Below, piece by piece: positions 47,060-52,092 of a stretch of 64,000 nt of DNA. Source of the stretch: Luteolibacter flavescens. Lineage in GTDB: Bacteria; Verrucomicrobiota; Verrucomicrobiia; Verrucomicrobiales; Akkermansiaceae. Below the pieces are notes generated by a model. It saw nothing but the letters and a program-made list of their open reading frames with translations. It was not told the origin of the DNA and did no database searches. The stretch spans positions 310,001-374,000 of the forward strand of contig NZ_JAPDDS010000005.1 in assembly GCF_025950085.1 (NCBI RefSeq), in the 5' to 3' direction. A program made the translations under genes and the position numbers. The stretch's first letter is position 1. The number at the start of each line of letters is the position of its first letter.

Positions 47060-47506
47060 ATGAAACCAGCCAACCTCGTCGGGTCCCGCCGGACGCGTTT
47101 CCGGTATTGCCATGCTGAAGATATAAGCCGTTCCCGTGGCATGACCCTCATCGAGCTCACCGTGGTCATCCTGGTGTTGCTCTCCCTCATCGGCGTCCTC
47201 TTCCTCGGCGCGAATGCATGGAAAAACGGGTCGGACCGGGTGCTCTGCATCCTGAACCTGCAATCGGTCCAGAAGGGTGTCCGCAGCTACTCGAATCTCA
47301 ATGGCCGCGCTCCCGGCGAAACGGTGCCCGGCTTGCAGTCGGAAGTGATCGGCCTGGGCCGCTTCGTCGAGGCGATGCCCGAGTGTCCCGCCCAGGGCAG
47401 CTATACCACGACCGGCGATACGATCCCGATGCTCGGCAGCCTTTACCTCGAGTGCTCGCTAGGCACGTCCGGCTCGCATGTGCCCGCAAACGCGGAGGAT
47501 TGGTAA
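47060..47506 (+). CDS. Type II secretion/type IV-like pseudopilin
   Basis: 148 residues. An unusually long basic leader of about 27 residues precedes the prepilin peptidase site RG-MTLIELTVVILVL with Glu5 of the mature protein, followed by a single hydrophobic helix. The rest is a soluble globular domain with four Cys, two of which could pair (CILNLQ and MPECPAQG). Such pseudopilins are abundant in this phylum. No secretion ATPase is nearby, so its machine is encoded elsewhere. Confidence 0.85.
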   Translation: MKPANLVGSRRTRFRYCHAEDISRSRGMTLIELTVVILVLLSLIGVLFLGANAWKNGSDRVLCILNLQSVQKGVRSYSNLNGRAPGETVPGLQSEVIGLGRFVEAMPECPAQGSYTTTGDTIPMLGSLYLECSLGTSGSHVPANAEDW

Positions 47507-47585
47507 AGTGGTTGGTTAAGAGGCAGGCCGGATTTCCCGGATTGCAGGATCGCCGGTTTCGGTGGAGTGTCGCCGCCGTGATTCC

Positions 47586-48818
47586 ATGAGCGCGGCCTCC
47601 AGTCCCTACGAAAGCCAGGCCCGGTTGTGGCTGGTGGCATTCGGCGTGTCCGCGCTGGTCAATCTGATCGCGCTGGCAGTGATCGGTTTCTGGGTGCTGG
47701 CGAAGATCGCGCTGCAGACCCCGCTGCCGGTGGCCGCGACGGCTGCGCCGGAGGAATCGGTGAAGGTGATCGTTCCCGAAATGATCGCCAGTCTGGCCGG
47801 TCAGCCGTTGCCGGAGGTGGCGCCCGCCCCGCCGCCTCCGCCGCCCGCCCAGCAGTATGCACGGACCTCGCCGGATCAGGCGGAGGTCGTGCCGGAGCGG
47901 CCGGACTTCATGGGGGAGCGGAACACGCAGGCCACCAGCGATAACGTGCCGGACGCCGCCGCGCCGGACCAGATCGCGCAAAAGGGCCGCGAGCCGATCG
48001 ACGAGAACGAGGTGGAGACCACCCAGAGCAATTATCAGGACGGCGACCTCGCTCATGACCGCATCAATCGCAGCATGCGGACGCCCATGCCGGAGCAGGC
48101 CTCGACTCCGCCTGTCCCGCCCACGCCTCCGGCCCCTGCGGCCGAGGTGCCTCCCGTCCCGCCAAGTCCCACCGACACTCCGAATACCGAGCCGCCGGCG
48201 GAGACCGCGAAGCTCGACGGCACCAGCGACTCCGAGGAGAAGCCCGCCGAGGCGACCCGCGAGCGTTTCGCGGAAGGTCCCTTGCCCGTGGAGCGCCGGG
48301 TGAAGGAGGCGAAGCCGGAGGATGAAACCAAGCCCGCCCAGCCGGAGCGCCGCGCCGATGGCCAGAAGCCCGAGGAAAAGGCCGTGGCCGAGCAGCCGAA
48401 GCCACCCGCCGCGAGCGCGAATGCGAATCCGAATGCCCCTGGCTTCCGCGGGAACCAGAAGAAGACCAAGCTGGTCGGCTCGATCAACCGCACCGGTCGC
48501 TCCGCGCTGAATGTGGAGGATTCCGTGCTCGGCCGCTATCACGCCGCCGTCAGCCGCGCGGTGGAGAAGGAGTGGCAGCTCAATTGCCTCCGCAACCGCG
48601 ACTTCATCACGCCCGGGATGCTCACCATGAGCTTCACGCTCGATGCGAAGGGGAAGGTCCGCGAGATCCGCGTCGATGAGGCGCTGCAGGTCGGCGCGAT
48701 CCCGAAGGGCTTCACCCTCAATGCCATCAATGACGCCGAGATCCCCGCGATGCCGGCCGACCTGAAGAAGCAGCTCAATGGCGAGCCGCTCGAACTCCTC
48801 TACCGTTTCAGTTTCTAA
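47586..48818 (+). CDS. TonB/TolA-like periplasm-spanning protein
   Basis: 410 residues. One N-terminal membrane helix (LWLVAFGVSALVNLIALAVI), a long Pro/Glu/Ala/Lys-rich linker (PAPPPPPPAQQY, VPPTPPAPAAEVPPVPPSPT-type stretches), and a C-terminal TonB/TolA-like domain (YHAAVSRAVEKEWQLNCLRN, TMSFTLDAKGKVREIRV). It lies directly upstream of exbB and exbD (3 bases to exbB). Together they would form a proton-driven energy transducer to the outer membrane. Whether its target is a TonB-dependent receptor or a Tol-type envelope role cannot be told. Confidence 0.87.
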   Translation: MSAASSPYESQARLWLVAFGVSALVNLIALAVIGFWVLAKIALQTPLPVAATAAPEESVKVIVPEMIASLAGQPLPEVAPAPPPPPPAQQYARTSPDQAEVVPERPDFMGERNTQATSDNVPDAAAPDQIAQKGREPIDENEVETTQSNYQDGDLAHDRINRSMRTPMPEQASTPPVPPTPPAPAAEVPPVPPSPTDTPNTEPPAETAKLDGTSDSEEKPAEATRERFAEGPLPVERRVKEAKPEDETKPAQPERRADGQKPEEKAVAEQPKPPAASANANPNAPGFRGNQKKTKLVGSINRTGRSALNVEDSVLGRYHAAVSRAVEKEWQLNCLRNRDFITPGMLTMSFTLDAKGKVREIRVDEALQVGAIPKGFTLNAINDAEIPAMPADLKKQLNGEPLELLYRFSF

Positions 48819-48821
48819 TTC

Positions 48822-49544
48822 ATGTCCTTTTCCTTGTTCCTCGCCGCCACTGCCACCACCGCCGACGCTGCGGAAAAGAGTGCCGTGGAGAAGCTCTGGC
48901 AGTTCTTCGCCGATGGCGGCTACTGCATGATCCTGCTGCTGCTATGCTCCTTCGTCATGGTGGCTTCGATTTTCTTCAAGATCCTCTCGCTGCGCCGCTC
49001 GCTCATCGTGCCCGCCGGGCTGGAGAAGAAGCTGCGCGAGTACGAGCATCACCACGAGGCGAGCCCCGGGCTCTTCGATGAGATCAAGGAGGGCCGCACG
49101 CCGCTGGCCCGTCTTTGCGGAGTCGCCCTCCGCCATCGCGGCGAGACCCGCGAGCAGATCACGGATGCCGTCCAGGCGTCCGCCCGCGAGGAGGTGCTGC
49201 GGCTGCATGCGGGCATGTCTTCCATCGACGTGATTGTCAGCCTGGCCCCGCTGCTGGGTCTCCTCGGCATGGCGAGCGGTCTGGTCGTCATGTTCGGCGG
49301 TCTCGGCGAAAGCCCGGATCCCACGCTGGTCTCGCGCGGCATCAGCGAGGCGCTGAATACCACGGTCTTCGGCCTCGGCCTGGCGGTCCCGGCCATCGTC
49401 GCCCACGCGATTTTCCTCCGCCGCATCGACATGTTCGTGGCCCGTCTGGAGGGCCTGCTCGCAGGCTTCGCCCGCACTTGTGAGAAGGCCCCGTCCTCGA
49501 CGGCCCGCCCGTCCTCGATGCCCGCCGCGCAAGCCCACGCCTGA
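48822..49544 (+). CDS. ExbB/TolQ/MotA family proton channel
   Basis: 240 residues with three membrane helices: near 35-55 (MILLLLCSFVMVASIFF), near 145-165 (LAPLLGLLGMASGLVVMF) and near 180-200 (FGLGLAVPAIVAHAIFL). The family signature ISEALNTTVFGLGLAVPAIV is intact, with the conserved Thr. The charged cytoplasmic loop lies between helices 1 and 2. The C-terminal 25 residues are Ser/Pro/Ala-rich. It forms the stator with the exbD product. Confidence 0.93.
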   Translation: MSFSLFLAATATTADAAEKSAVEKLWQFFADGGYCMILLLLCSFVMVASIFFKILSLRRSLIVPAGLEKKLREYEHHHEASPGLFDEIKEGRTPLARLCGVALRHRGETREQITDAVQASAREEVLRLHAGMSSIDVIVSLAPLLGLLGMASGLVVMFGGLGESPDPTLVSRGISEALNTTVFGLGLAVPAIVAHAIFLRRIDMFVARLEGLLAGFARTCEKAPSSTARPSSMPAAQAHA

Positions 49545-49557
49545 TCCGCCGGCCGCC

Positions 49558-49998
49558 ATGCGATTCGAACAGCCCGTCCGCAAGTCCCGTGGGGTCCCGG
49601 TGGTCCCCATGATCGACCTGCTTTTCGTCATCCTCATCTTCCTGGTGGTCTCGACCACCTTCAAGAAGCCGCGCAGCGTGCTCCCCATCGAGCTGCCCAC
49701 CTTGAAGGAGATCACCGGCTCCGAGGTCGTGGATTCCCGCTCCGTCCTCTCGCTCGACAAGGAAGGGAAGATCACCCTCGACGCCGTGGCCGTGCCGGAC
49801 GTGCTGCTGCTGGACTCCTACCTGAAGGCCTTCACGAAGGAGAATCCCGGCCGCAAGCTGGAGCTGGAGGCGGACAAGCAGGTGCCACTGGAGAAATTGC
49901 TCGGCGTGTGGGACGCGTTGACCCGCGCGGGCATCGCGATTAAGGACGTGCCCGCCCGCATCCGCCTGCCGCAGGATGCGGAGAGTCCCTCGCAATGA
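49558..49998 (+). CDS. ExbD/TolR family protein
   Basis: 146 residues. One N-terminal membrane helix (VPMIDLLFVILIFLVVSTTF) with the proton-carrying Asp20, then a periplasmic domain. ATG at 49558, 13 bases after exbB. The last four bases (ATGA) overlap the deformylase start, so the two are translationally coupled. Confidence 0.93.
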   Translation: MRFEQPVRKSRGVPVVPMIDLLFVILIFLVVSTTFKKPRSVLPIELPTLKEITGSEVVDSRSVLSLDKEGKITLDAVAVPDVLLLDSYLKAFTKENPGRKLELEADKQVPLEKLLGVWDALTRAGIAIKDVPARIRLPQDAESPSQ

Positions 49999-50543
49999 TC
50001 CTCGATATCGTCCAATACGGGCATCCCGTCCTCCGCGAACGCTGCAAGCCTGTCGAAAAGGTCGATGACGACCTGCGCAAGCTCGCCGCCGACATGCTCG
50101 AAACCATGTACCACGCCAATGGCGTCGGGCTGGCCGCGCCGCAGATCGGCCTCGCCATCCGCCTCGCCGTCGTCGATGTGGCGCATGATCCCGAGTGTAT
50201 CACCTTCCTGAAGGTCGCCGGGGAAGACGCTCCGCTGGAGTCCATCATGCCGCTGACCTTCATCAATCCCGAGCTGGAATTCACCGGCCCGAAGGAGAAG
50301 GACACCGAGGGCTGCCTGAGCATCCATGACGTGCGCGCCGACGTCAGCCGGCCCTCCGCGCTGAAGGCGAAGCTGCCACAACTCGACGGCACCGTGCTGG
50401 AGATAGAGACCGACGGCCTGCTCGCCCGCGCGATCCAGCATGAGACGGATCATCTCAATGGTATCCTTTTCATCGACCGCGTGGCCCCTGCCACGAAGAT
50501 CAGCCTGCGCCGGAAGTTGAGGCGTCTCGCTGCGGACGAATGA
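49995..50543 (+). CDS. def: Peptide deformylase
   Basis: 182 residues. It removes the formyl group from nascent N-termini. Motif 1 GVGLAAPQIG (43-52), motif 2 EGCLSI with metal ligand Cys107, motif 3 QHETDHLNG with His149, catalytic Glu150 and His153. A Pro/Leu insertion near 75-85 (KVAGEDAPLESIMP) is a common type I variation. It is coupled to exbD by a four-base overlap, an unusual neighbour for def. Confidence 0.97.
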   Translation: MILDIVQYGHPVLRERCKPVEKVDDDLRKLAADMLETMYHANGVGLAAPQIGLAIRLAVVDVAHDPECITFLKVAGEDAPLESIMPLTFINPELEFTGPKEKDTEGCLSIHDVRADVSRPSALKAKLPQLDGTVLEIETDGLLARAIQHETDHLNGILFIDRVAPATKISLRRKLRRLAADE

Positions 50544-50633: not shown

Positions 50634-51506
50634 ATGAACAGCAGCCGCGGTATTTTCGAGCCCCAGGAAGGGTTCGCCCCAGCCCCTCCCGCCAAGAGCC
50701 CGTTCGCCGTTTCCGACGATGGTCCGGCCACCAGCCCGTTCGCCATCGTCTCGGAGCCTGAGTCTCCGTTTGCCGCGATGAAGGACGAGCATCCCACCCG
50801 CCTGGCGAATGAGCCGGGGCGTCCGGTGAAGCTCCCCGAGCGCCGTCCTGCCGCGGGTGAGACCCCGGCTGCAGAGGCCCGCTCGCCGTTCGCCGCCGAG
50901 TCTTCGAATCCCTCTCCGTTTGACGCTCCGGCGTCTGCTTCCTCCCCATTTGCCAGCTCCCCTCCGCCCGTGCCTGCTGCATCCGCTTCCTCCAGTCCAT
51001 TCGGCTTCGGTGCCGAGCCCGCCGCCGCTCCTGCGACCACTCCAGCCCCGGCCGCCGTGGCTGCTGCCGCTGCCGCCGCCCTCGCGGAGGTCGCGCCTGC
51101 ACCGGCTCCGGTCGCTGCACCGGCCCCGGTGTCCTCGCCTGCCGCTTCCAGCGACTCCTCCATCGATCTCGACTCCGGCTCGATCCGCCAGCTTGCCCTG
51201 CGCGCCATCTTCGGCGTGGACCGCGAGCTGGGTGCCGAGGAGATGCTCCAGCGTGCGCGTGGCCTTTCCGGCATCCGCCACGTCGCCCGCATTCCGGCCT
51301 CCGAGGTCGCCACGGTCGATGCTTTCAAGAAGATCATCAACAGCCTCGGCTTCCCCGCCGGTCAGGTGAAGCTCGTCGCCGGCAACACGCCGATCGAGTT
51401 CATCCGCGAAGGCAATGTCGTCCTGGCCATCCAGAATGACGGCAGCTTCGCCCCGGGCGTGAAGGAAACGCTCATCATCGTCGCCCGCGAACTGGGCAAG
51501 CTGTAA
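50634..51506 (+). CDS. SPF-repeat protein with possible roadblock-like C-terminus
   Basis: 290 residues, soluble, no signal peptide. The first 170 residues are disordered, rich in Pro/Ala/Ser, and carry at least seven Ser-Pro-Phe repeats (KSPFAVSDDG, TSPFAIVS, ESPFAAMK, RSPFAAES, PSPFDAPA, SSPFASSP, SSPFGFG). The C-terminal 120 residues are compact: IDLDSGSIRQLALRAIFGVD, GLSGIRHVARIPASEV, VVLAIQNDGSFAPGVKETLI. Alpha/beta pattern and the final strand-helix recall roadblock/LC7 (MglB-like) proteins; I am not certain. It lies 19 bases upstream of an MglA-like GTPase. Confidence 0.75.
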   Translation: MNSSRGIFEPQEGFAPAPPAKSPFAVSDDGPATSPFAIVSEPESPFAAMKDEHPTRLANEPGRPVKLPERRPAAGETPAAEARSPFAAESSNPSPFDAPASASSPFASSPPPVPAASASSSPFGFGAEPAAAPATTPAPAAVAAAAAAALAEVAPAPAPVAAPAPVSSPAASSDSSIDLDSGSIRQLALRAIFGVDRELGAEEMLQRARGLSGIRHVARIPASEVATVDAFKKIINSLGFPAGQVKLVAGNTPIEFIREGNVVLAIQNDGSFAPGVKETLIIVARELGKL

Positions 51507-51525
51507 GGCCTGTCGTCCCCCCGGC

Positions 51526-52092
51526 ATGACGGTCCAGCAAAACGGACGTCAGGTTTCCGTGAAGGTCGCCCTCACCGGGGCGGCCGATACGGGGAAGCTT
51601 GCGATCTTGCGAGCCATTGCCGGGCGCAATGGCTCGGCGACCGTCCGCGAGCACTCCATCGGCGCGCTCCACGTCCATCGTGTCGAGTGGACCGAGCCCG
51701 AGACCCTGCCGGACGGCCGCTTCCTGAATGTGGCGGTCCATTCCCTGACCGGGCGCATGGAATACAATGCCGCGGAGGAGCTGCTCGTCCGTGATACGGC
51801 GGGCATCATCTTCGTGGTGGATGTGGATCCAGCGAAATTCCAGGCGACGTGGGACAGCCTCATGCGGCTCTCCGGGAATACGAAGCGGAACGGCTTCGAC
51901 CTCCACTCCGTGAGCCTCGCGATCCAATATCATCGCACGGACCTCATCCCGGACTTCGATCCGGTGAAGCTCGACAAGCGTCTCGGCGTGCCTCCGGGCG
52001 TCATCCCGCGCTTCGTCTCCACCAGCCGCCAGCCCGATGCCGAGGGCCTGGCATTTGACTCCGTGCTGGCGCAGATCAAGGCGAAGCTGTGA
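51526..52092 (+). CDS. Degenerate MglA-like small GTPase
   Basis: 188 residues. It has the layout of the bacterial MglA/Ras-like group: P-loop region at 18-25 (GAADTGKL, Leu in place of Ser/Thr), NVAVHSLTGRMEYNAAEELL where MglA normally has TVPGQ, IIFVVDVDPAKFQATWDSLM, and AIQYHRTDL where NKxD would be. Each nucleotide-binding motif is altered, so GTP binding or hydrolysis may be reduced or lost. It follows the SPF-repeat gene by 19 bases on the same strand. MglA/MglB pairs set cell polarity and motility in other bacteria. Confidence 0.75.
   Translation: MTVQQNGRQVSVKVALTGAADTGKLAILRAIAGRNGSATVREHSIGALHVHRVEWTEPETLPDGRFLNVAVHSLTGRMEYNAAEELLVRDTAGIIFVVDVDPAKFQATWDSLMRLSGNTKRNGFDLHSVSLAIQYHRTDLIPDFDPVKLDKRLGVPPGVIPRFVSTSRQPDAEGLAFDSVLAQIKAKL

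Follow-up and report, generated by a model that had tools for sequence, protein, structure and literature searches.

Within a 64,000-nucleotide stretch of the Luteolibacter flavescens genome (contig NZ_JAPDDS010000005.1, positions 310,001 to 374,000 of the forward strand; hereinafter the window), we found a pair of adjacent genes that we read, on balance, as a remodelled remnant of an MglA–roadblock switch, whose MglA homologue would now be a pseudo-GTPase subunit of its roadblock-like partner. The partner and GTPase reading frames (50634-51506 and 51526-52092) are both open and lie on the same + strand with a gap of 19 nt, in agreement with an earlier note on this DNA that had placed a Ras/MglA-like gene 19 bases downstream of the partner. 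The pair ends a row with the order TolA-like–ExbB–ExbD–def–partner–GTPase, whose features are as follows:

47562..48818 (likely start 47586), + strand: TolA/TonB-like protein, so called only because of its layout (a hydrophobic segment at the N-terminus, a Pro-rich middle, and a small domain at the C-terminus)
48822..49544, + strand: ExbB/TolQ/MotA-like protein (PF01618, 3.1e-24)
49558..49998 (open reading frame scanned from 49480), + strand: ExbD/TolR-like protein (PF02472, 5e-19)
49995..50543, + strand: def, peptide deformylase (PF01327), directly 5′ of the partner gene
50634..51506, + strand: partner protein, 290 aa, with an N-terminal Pro/Ala-rich region carrying 7 SPF repeats and a predicted C-terminal roadblock-like domain at about residues 180-290
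51129..51503, + strand: segment with the predicted roadblock-like domain, modelled part (helix, helix, strand, helix, three strands, helix)
51526..52092, + strand: MglA-like protein, probable pseudo-GTPase, 188 aa, with P-loop GAADTGKL (18-25), G3 SLTGR (73-77), and G4 YHRTD (135-139)

The SPF-repeat partner and its C-terminal domain

The earlier note had counted at least seven Ser-Pro-Phe repeats in the partner N-terminus; we find SPF exactly seven times (residues 22, 34, 44, 84, 94, 104, and 121), and every Pro-Phe within residues 1-175 is part of a Ser-Pro-Phe. A chance origin of the repeats can be rejected: when residues 1-175 were shuffled 20,000 times, SPF turned up 0.29 times on average and never more than 4 times. 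Among the named loci, at least three SPF repeats are seen in 24/31 partners accompanied by a GTPase reading frame versus 23/42 of those without one, the other 19/42 having only zero to two; Roseibacillus-type partners have SPF only once or twice, along with as many as three NPF. The window partner begins with the motif MNSSRGIFEPQEGF (50634 onward), and an opening like MSxxRGIF[ED] is kept in many partner lineages devoid of the GTPase (partners of L039-L064); it is a candidate second docking motif independent of the GTPase. In other families the partner is far longer, with open frames of 470-1252 aa and extra N-terminal sequence (L183-L187, L195-L214). Second partner-like copies lacking SPF repeats, def, and the GTPase were recovered at L068 and L072, in genomes that also hold a standard copy; two partner matches each were obtained in genomes G006 and G012, and the window partner, when searched against its own genome, retrieved itself and two weak matches (E 0.026 and 0.69).

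For the C-terminal domain, an AlphaFold2 model of the 51129..51503 segment, computed from a 71-row alignment (pLDDT 84.5, pTM 0.71), supports the roadblock-like fold that the earlier note had proposed for this region. The best 30 Foldseek matches of this model are by title all roadblock/LC7-type proteins or complexes holding them, including Ragulator, dynein, and archaeal roadblocks, at E 0.056 or worse and query TM-scores of 0.28-0.46. VIA-align places an Asgard roadblock at Z 7.5 and a Streptomyces roadblock and Myxococcus xanthus MglB at Z 7.0, values that are by themselves middling, profilins also reaching Z 5-6.3. At the sequence level, the window domain has no family match in Pfam, including Robl_LC7, which is matched by one of the 30 aligned partner members (E 0.029); the partner-domain profile reached 7f8f in the PDB at E 0.28. 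After the first strand, the domain is missing about 22 alignment columns that its relatives in other families possess; one strand of the roadblock fold is missing.

An altered MglA homologue under purifying selection

The protein encoded by the second gene is a member of the MglA family by sequence and fold: the window GTPase is related to MglA by phmmer (9.2e-10), and a profile of 30 GTPase relatives, 11 of them canonical (profile A2), matches MglA at 1.5e-54. The fold was taken from a relative (L076) whose two genes were folded as one read-through fusion; each domain of this model is confident on its own (fusion pTM 0.61, without an error matrix), and its GTPase domain matches MglA-GDP over 192 residues (Z 25.1, 2.5 Å). 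The MglA ancestry suggested earlier is thus upheld, as are the motif changes that had been described for this protein. Its P-loop (GAADTGKL) has Leu in place of Ser/Thr, its G3 (SLTGR) has Arg for the catalytic Gln, and its G4 (YHRTD) has HRTD for NKxD; the residues kept are Gly18, Gly23, the P-loop Lys24, Arg52 of the switch I region, and the G4 Asp139.

We surveyed these motifs across relatives using M. xanthus MglA numbering, as given in the available text of PMC3000849. In a canonical set of 12 sequences (11 from other families plus L101, being those aligned out of 116 genomes of the order outside the family with a match), GK[ST], Gln82, Asn141, Lys142, and Asp144 are each present in 12/12. 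The derived set, comprising 34 aligned orthologues of the window's family, retains GK[ST] in 2/34, Gln82 in 5/34, Asn141 in 6/34, Lys142 in 1/34, and Asp144 in 17/34, and none of the 34 keeps all the nucleotide motifs, a figure that applies to full-length genes, the remnants L059, L065, and L091 having been left out of the alignment (A5). A further alignment (A4) covers 70 of the 73 named loci, excluding L069, L097 (which holds X), and L100. The earlier note had reasoned that canonical motifs in the orthologues would reduce the changes to local drift; local drift in one genome is ruled out by these counts, the altered motifs being common to the orthologues and kept by selection near the window (see below).

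The nucleotide motifs have been lost to different degrees across the family. The window and its 11 closest rows share one P-loop, GxADxGKL; L015 and L077 retain a GKS P-loop and Gln82, with the G4 altered and a full NKxD absent. A loose pattern picked after viewing the alignment, [DS]xxLG, marks 33/34 derived versus 2/12 canonical sequences. In 25 further sister-family loci (five from genomes already among the 12), the GK[ST] P-loop and [NT]KxD occur in 25/25; the G3 is more variable, reading TVPGQ or SVPGQ in 18/25, with five lacking a pattern match, and in L187 the simple pattern matched elsewhere, this gene (aligned as L020) reading TVPGQ in the alignment. One f2 GTPase (L197, genome G052) scores far lower against the family (113 bits), with a G3 read as SLSGW; its motifs have perhaps changed independently, outside the window's family.

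Selection on the pair was assessed by Nei-Gojobori counts, and the resulting dN/dS values are rough because synonymous divergence is 0.5-1.35. Within the window's lineage, six pairs of close relatives (the pairs overlap) give a GTPase dN/dS of 0.077-0.112, and in all 17 same-genus genomes searched its reading frame is uninterrupted, at 188-216 aa. The altered GTPase is accordingly held by strong purifying selection in this lineage, and a pseudogene is ruled out there. The roadblock segment near the window gives 0.25-0.28, values that are probably too high because about 20 low-confidence residues were included. The Haloferula rosea/H. luteola lineage has GTPase ratios of 0.33 (L018-L026) and 0.63 (L014-L018), with 0.10-0.17 for the roadblock segment in these two pairs; in a third pair (L014-L016) the GTPase is saturated.

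A G fold whose nucleotide motifs are lost and which is nevertheless under purifying selection argues strongly for a putative pseudo-GTPase, in which weak nucleotide binding is possible because the P-loop Lys24 and the G4 Asp139 are kept in the window. The five kept residues, the strength of the purifying selection, and the departure of MglA itself from Ras rules (Thr78 in place of Asp; available text of PMC3000849) would also suit a non-canonical but live GTPase, binding guanine nucleotide through Lys24, Asp139, and Arg52 and switching without the usual Mg ligand and Gln. However, the same text reports that the M. xanthus MglA mutants K25A, T26N, Q82A/R, N141A, K142A, and D144A left MglA undetectable, and the window GTPase differs at four of these six sites at once; moreover, the P-loop Lys is also lost in 8/34 derived sequences (L016, L017, L018, L026, L044, L084, L089, and L090), and we regard a live GTPase as rather unlikely. 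More probably, going by its lost motifs and the selection on it, the altered GTPase works as a fixed building block and not as a switch.

Sister families, gene row, and gene loss

The partner domain is found in 183/288 genomes of the order and the GTPase in 142/288 (E up to 1e-10). Outside the window's family, 115 of the 129 partner-bearing genomes also have the GTPase and the other 14 lack it, and one further genome has a GTPase but no partner; in 40/40 pairs picked by hand from these, the partner and GTPase profile matches are 9-150 nt apart. We fetched 25 loci from sister families, selecting only genomes in which both genes were already known; there MglA follows the partner in 25/25 and is followed by an MglB relative in 22/25. 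The second gene of the window pair thus corresponds to a canonical MglA gene that sister families have in the equivalent position after this partner. The partner itself is distinct from the MglB of these operons, since a separate MglB relative adjoins MglA in the 22 loci. No MglB was found in any of the 73 named partner loci. Likewise, Robl_LC7 scored over the cut-off in 0/35 genomes of the window's family versus 9/22 others (the window's own genome gave a sub-cut-off match of 21.4 bits in a 620-aa frame), and a profile built from ten sister-family MglB relatives recovered matches genome-wide in 0/35 family genomes versus 12/22 others, only 65 of up to 102 candidates having been scored in some genomes. 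An absent MglB match does not by itself predict motif loss, because five of six f4 genomes lack one, yet four of these five contributed MglAs to the alignment, and those MglAs are canonical.

The window row contains ExbB and ExbD genes, as expected for an ExbB–ExbD/TolQR-type energised complex (PF01618, PF02472); the TolA/TonB-like protein preceding them has no match in Pfam. The exbD stop overlaps the def start (ATGA, 49995-49998), and def may therefore be translationally coupled to exbD. Before the TolA-like gene lies a small pseudopilin-like protein (47060-47506, +) whose N-terminal methylation motif scores below the cut-off (PF07963, E 0.0008), and related reading frames stand in that place in several relatives. 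Where enough upstream sequence is available, def precedes the partner in 53/65 named relatives and ExbB and ExbD are upstream in 33/62 named loci. Elsewhere, L034 and L037 have the partner and GTPase adjacent and open, with def and ExbB–ExbD not found upstream, so that the pair may move as a unit. A joint test of GTPase presence against ExbB presence yielded five independent pairs on starred branches, too few to judge a link.

As def has a housekeeping function, its neighbors in the row could be only loosely associated. In that case the pseudo-GTPase–roadblock pair would be unrelated to ExbB–ExbD, and the row a historical or expression neighborhood around def, an account to which we assign a minor but real weight. 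It would explain the fetched f3, f4, and f6 loci (L183, L185, L186, L213, and L214), which have the pair without Exb genes, one f1 branch that has kept def–partner without them, and the eight of 20 f2 loci that have no ExbB downstream (two of these offering less than 1.1 kb to look at). It sits less well with the remaining 12/20 f2 loci, in which ExbB lies downstream of MglB: L202 and L204 additionally have TolA-like–ExbB–ExbD–def ahead of the partner, placing Exb genes on both sides, and in the ten others they are 3′ of MglB, making two placements in all.

In the window's family, 78 of 145 genomes have the partner and 50 have GTPase matches at E 0.001; nine of these 50, whose only matches are above 1e-4 in frames of more than 600 aa, were not counted as relatives. 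A quick tree of def plus partner comprises 73 rows, in which the GTPase is present in 26, canonical in three outgroup rows, a remnant in three, absent in 39, and undecided in two; the short L069, L078, and L100 were left out. On this tree, in which 27/70 inner branches are weak and the outgroup branches are long, GTPase presence changes at least six times if remnants are scored as present and at least five times if not. The remnants (L059, L065, and L091) are broken or truncated; behind the other partners lacking a GTPase reading frame, tblastn recovered none where at least 300 nt were available. A search of a plasmid collection gave one weak Deinococcus match (E 9e-5). A PilT-type ATPase model matched 57/57 relatives (56 over the cut-off), with or without the GTPase, and 13/14 control genomes (five over the cut-off); such matches do not discriminate on a type IV pilus link, because relatives of both kinds and controls alike match. 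That the GTPase is simply a relic on its way out, the process being complete in many relatives, would accord with the 39 absences and three broken or truncated copies and with the raised dN/dS of the two Haloferula pairs, but is very improbable given the low ratios in the window's lineage, the intact frames in 17/17 same-genus genomes, and the P-loop shared by the window and its 11 closest rows.

A proposed mechanism and related systems

In the reading that we favor, the remodelled remnant would have lost its GTP cycle, leaving the MglA fold to act permanently as a structural subunit bound to the partner's roadblock domain, a contact suggested by descent and adjacency. The disordered, SPF-studded N-terminus would tether the partner to another component via many weak contacts, and the module would possibly serve the co-encoded TolA/TonB-like–ExbB–ExbD complex, to which gene order points as the most likely client. 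The partner would form the core of the module, since many relatives keep it without the GTPase. A broader proposal, that a Ras-type switch once coupled to ExbBD-type motors was frozen as a structural subunit, with the SPF-repeat roadblock protein and not the GTPase as the hub, is offered more tentatively, as a possibility that we rate somewhat below even. A polarity role for the pair is unproven, and nothing here supports polarity or motility.

To our knowledge, most of the Ras-type pseudo-GTPases described so far are eukaryotic, and within the terms searched in an open-access library we found no report of a verrucomicrobial MglA with degenerate motifs or of MglA and ExbB genes sharing a row in this phylum. 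The window thus offers a candidate bacterial pseudo-GTPase with canonical, intermediate, altered, and lost forms in living relatives, and these make it directly testable whether a switch may give up GTP before it gives up its partner. Under the broader proposal, a canonical counterpart, half-changed intermediates, a constrained pseudo-GTPase, broken remnants, and complete losses would coexist among these relatives. Further, MglA, a roadblock-like protein, and ExbB–ExbD are brought together by gene order in some Verrucomicrobiales, apart from the gliding machinery of Myxococcus.

Among the closest known systems, the pair resembles the MglA/MglB GTPase–GAP module of M. xanthus and Thermus thermophilus in the fold and descent of MglA, the adjacent roadblock-fold gene, and the position of the switch I Arg; the sister-family counterpart carries the TVPGQ and Arg of MglA Group 1, as defined in the accessible portion of PMC4316618. 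In contrast to that module, the window GTPase is devoid of the P-loop Ser/Thr, the catalytic Gln, and the Asn-Lys of NKxD, MglB was not found, and the adjacent roadblock-like protein has a long SPF-repeat region and is missing one domain stretch. A likeness by description is seen in RomY of the M. xanthus polarity module, a further protein beside MglB that acts on MglA in a "roadblock domain-containing GAP complex" (excerpted text of PMC9481161), as the partner adjoins MglA and MglB in sister families; however, RomY is 188 aa long and stimulates MglB, which was not found in the window's family. For the possible link to ExbB–ExbD, which gene order suggests, the nearest parallel would be the AglRQS TolQR-like motor of M. 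xanthus gliding, where ExbB/TolQ- and ExbD/TolR-type proteins are proposed to act in one machinery with MglA (PMC3169522, as far as its text was available); here the link is purely one of gene order, and Luteolibacter soli is described as non-motile (PMC11427321, in the part available). Finally, the dynein light intermediate chain and CENP-M, likened here by description, are proposed to use their G-protein fold without cycling through nucleotide states (available text of PMC4359372); they differ in being eukaryotic and in not being encoded beside a roadblock gene, and pseudo-GTPases of this eukaryotic type, the dynein light intermediate chain among them, would, by analogy, provide the closest working model for the altered GTPase of the window.
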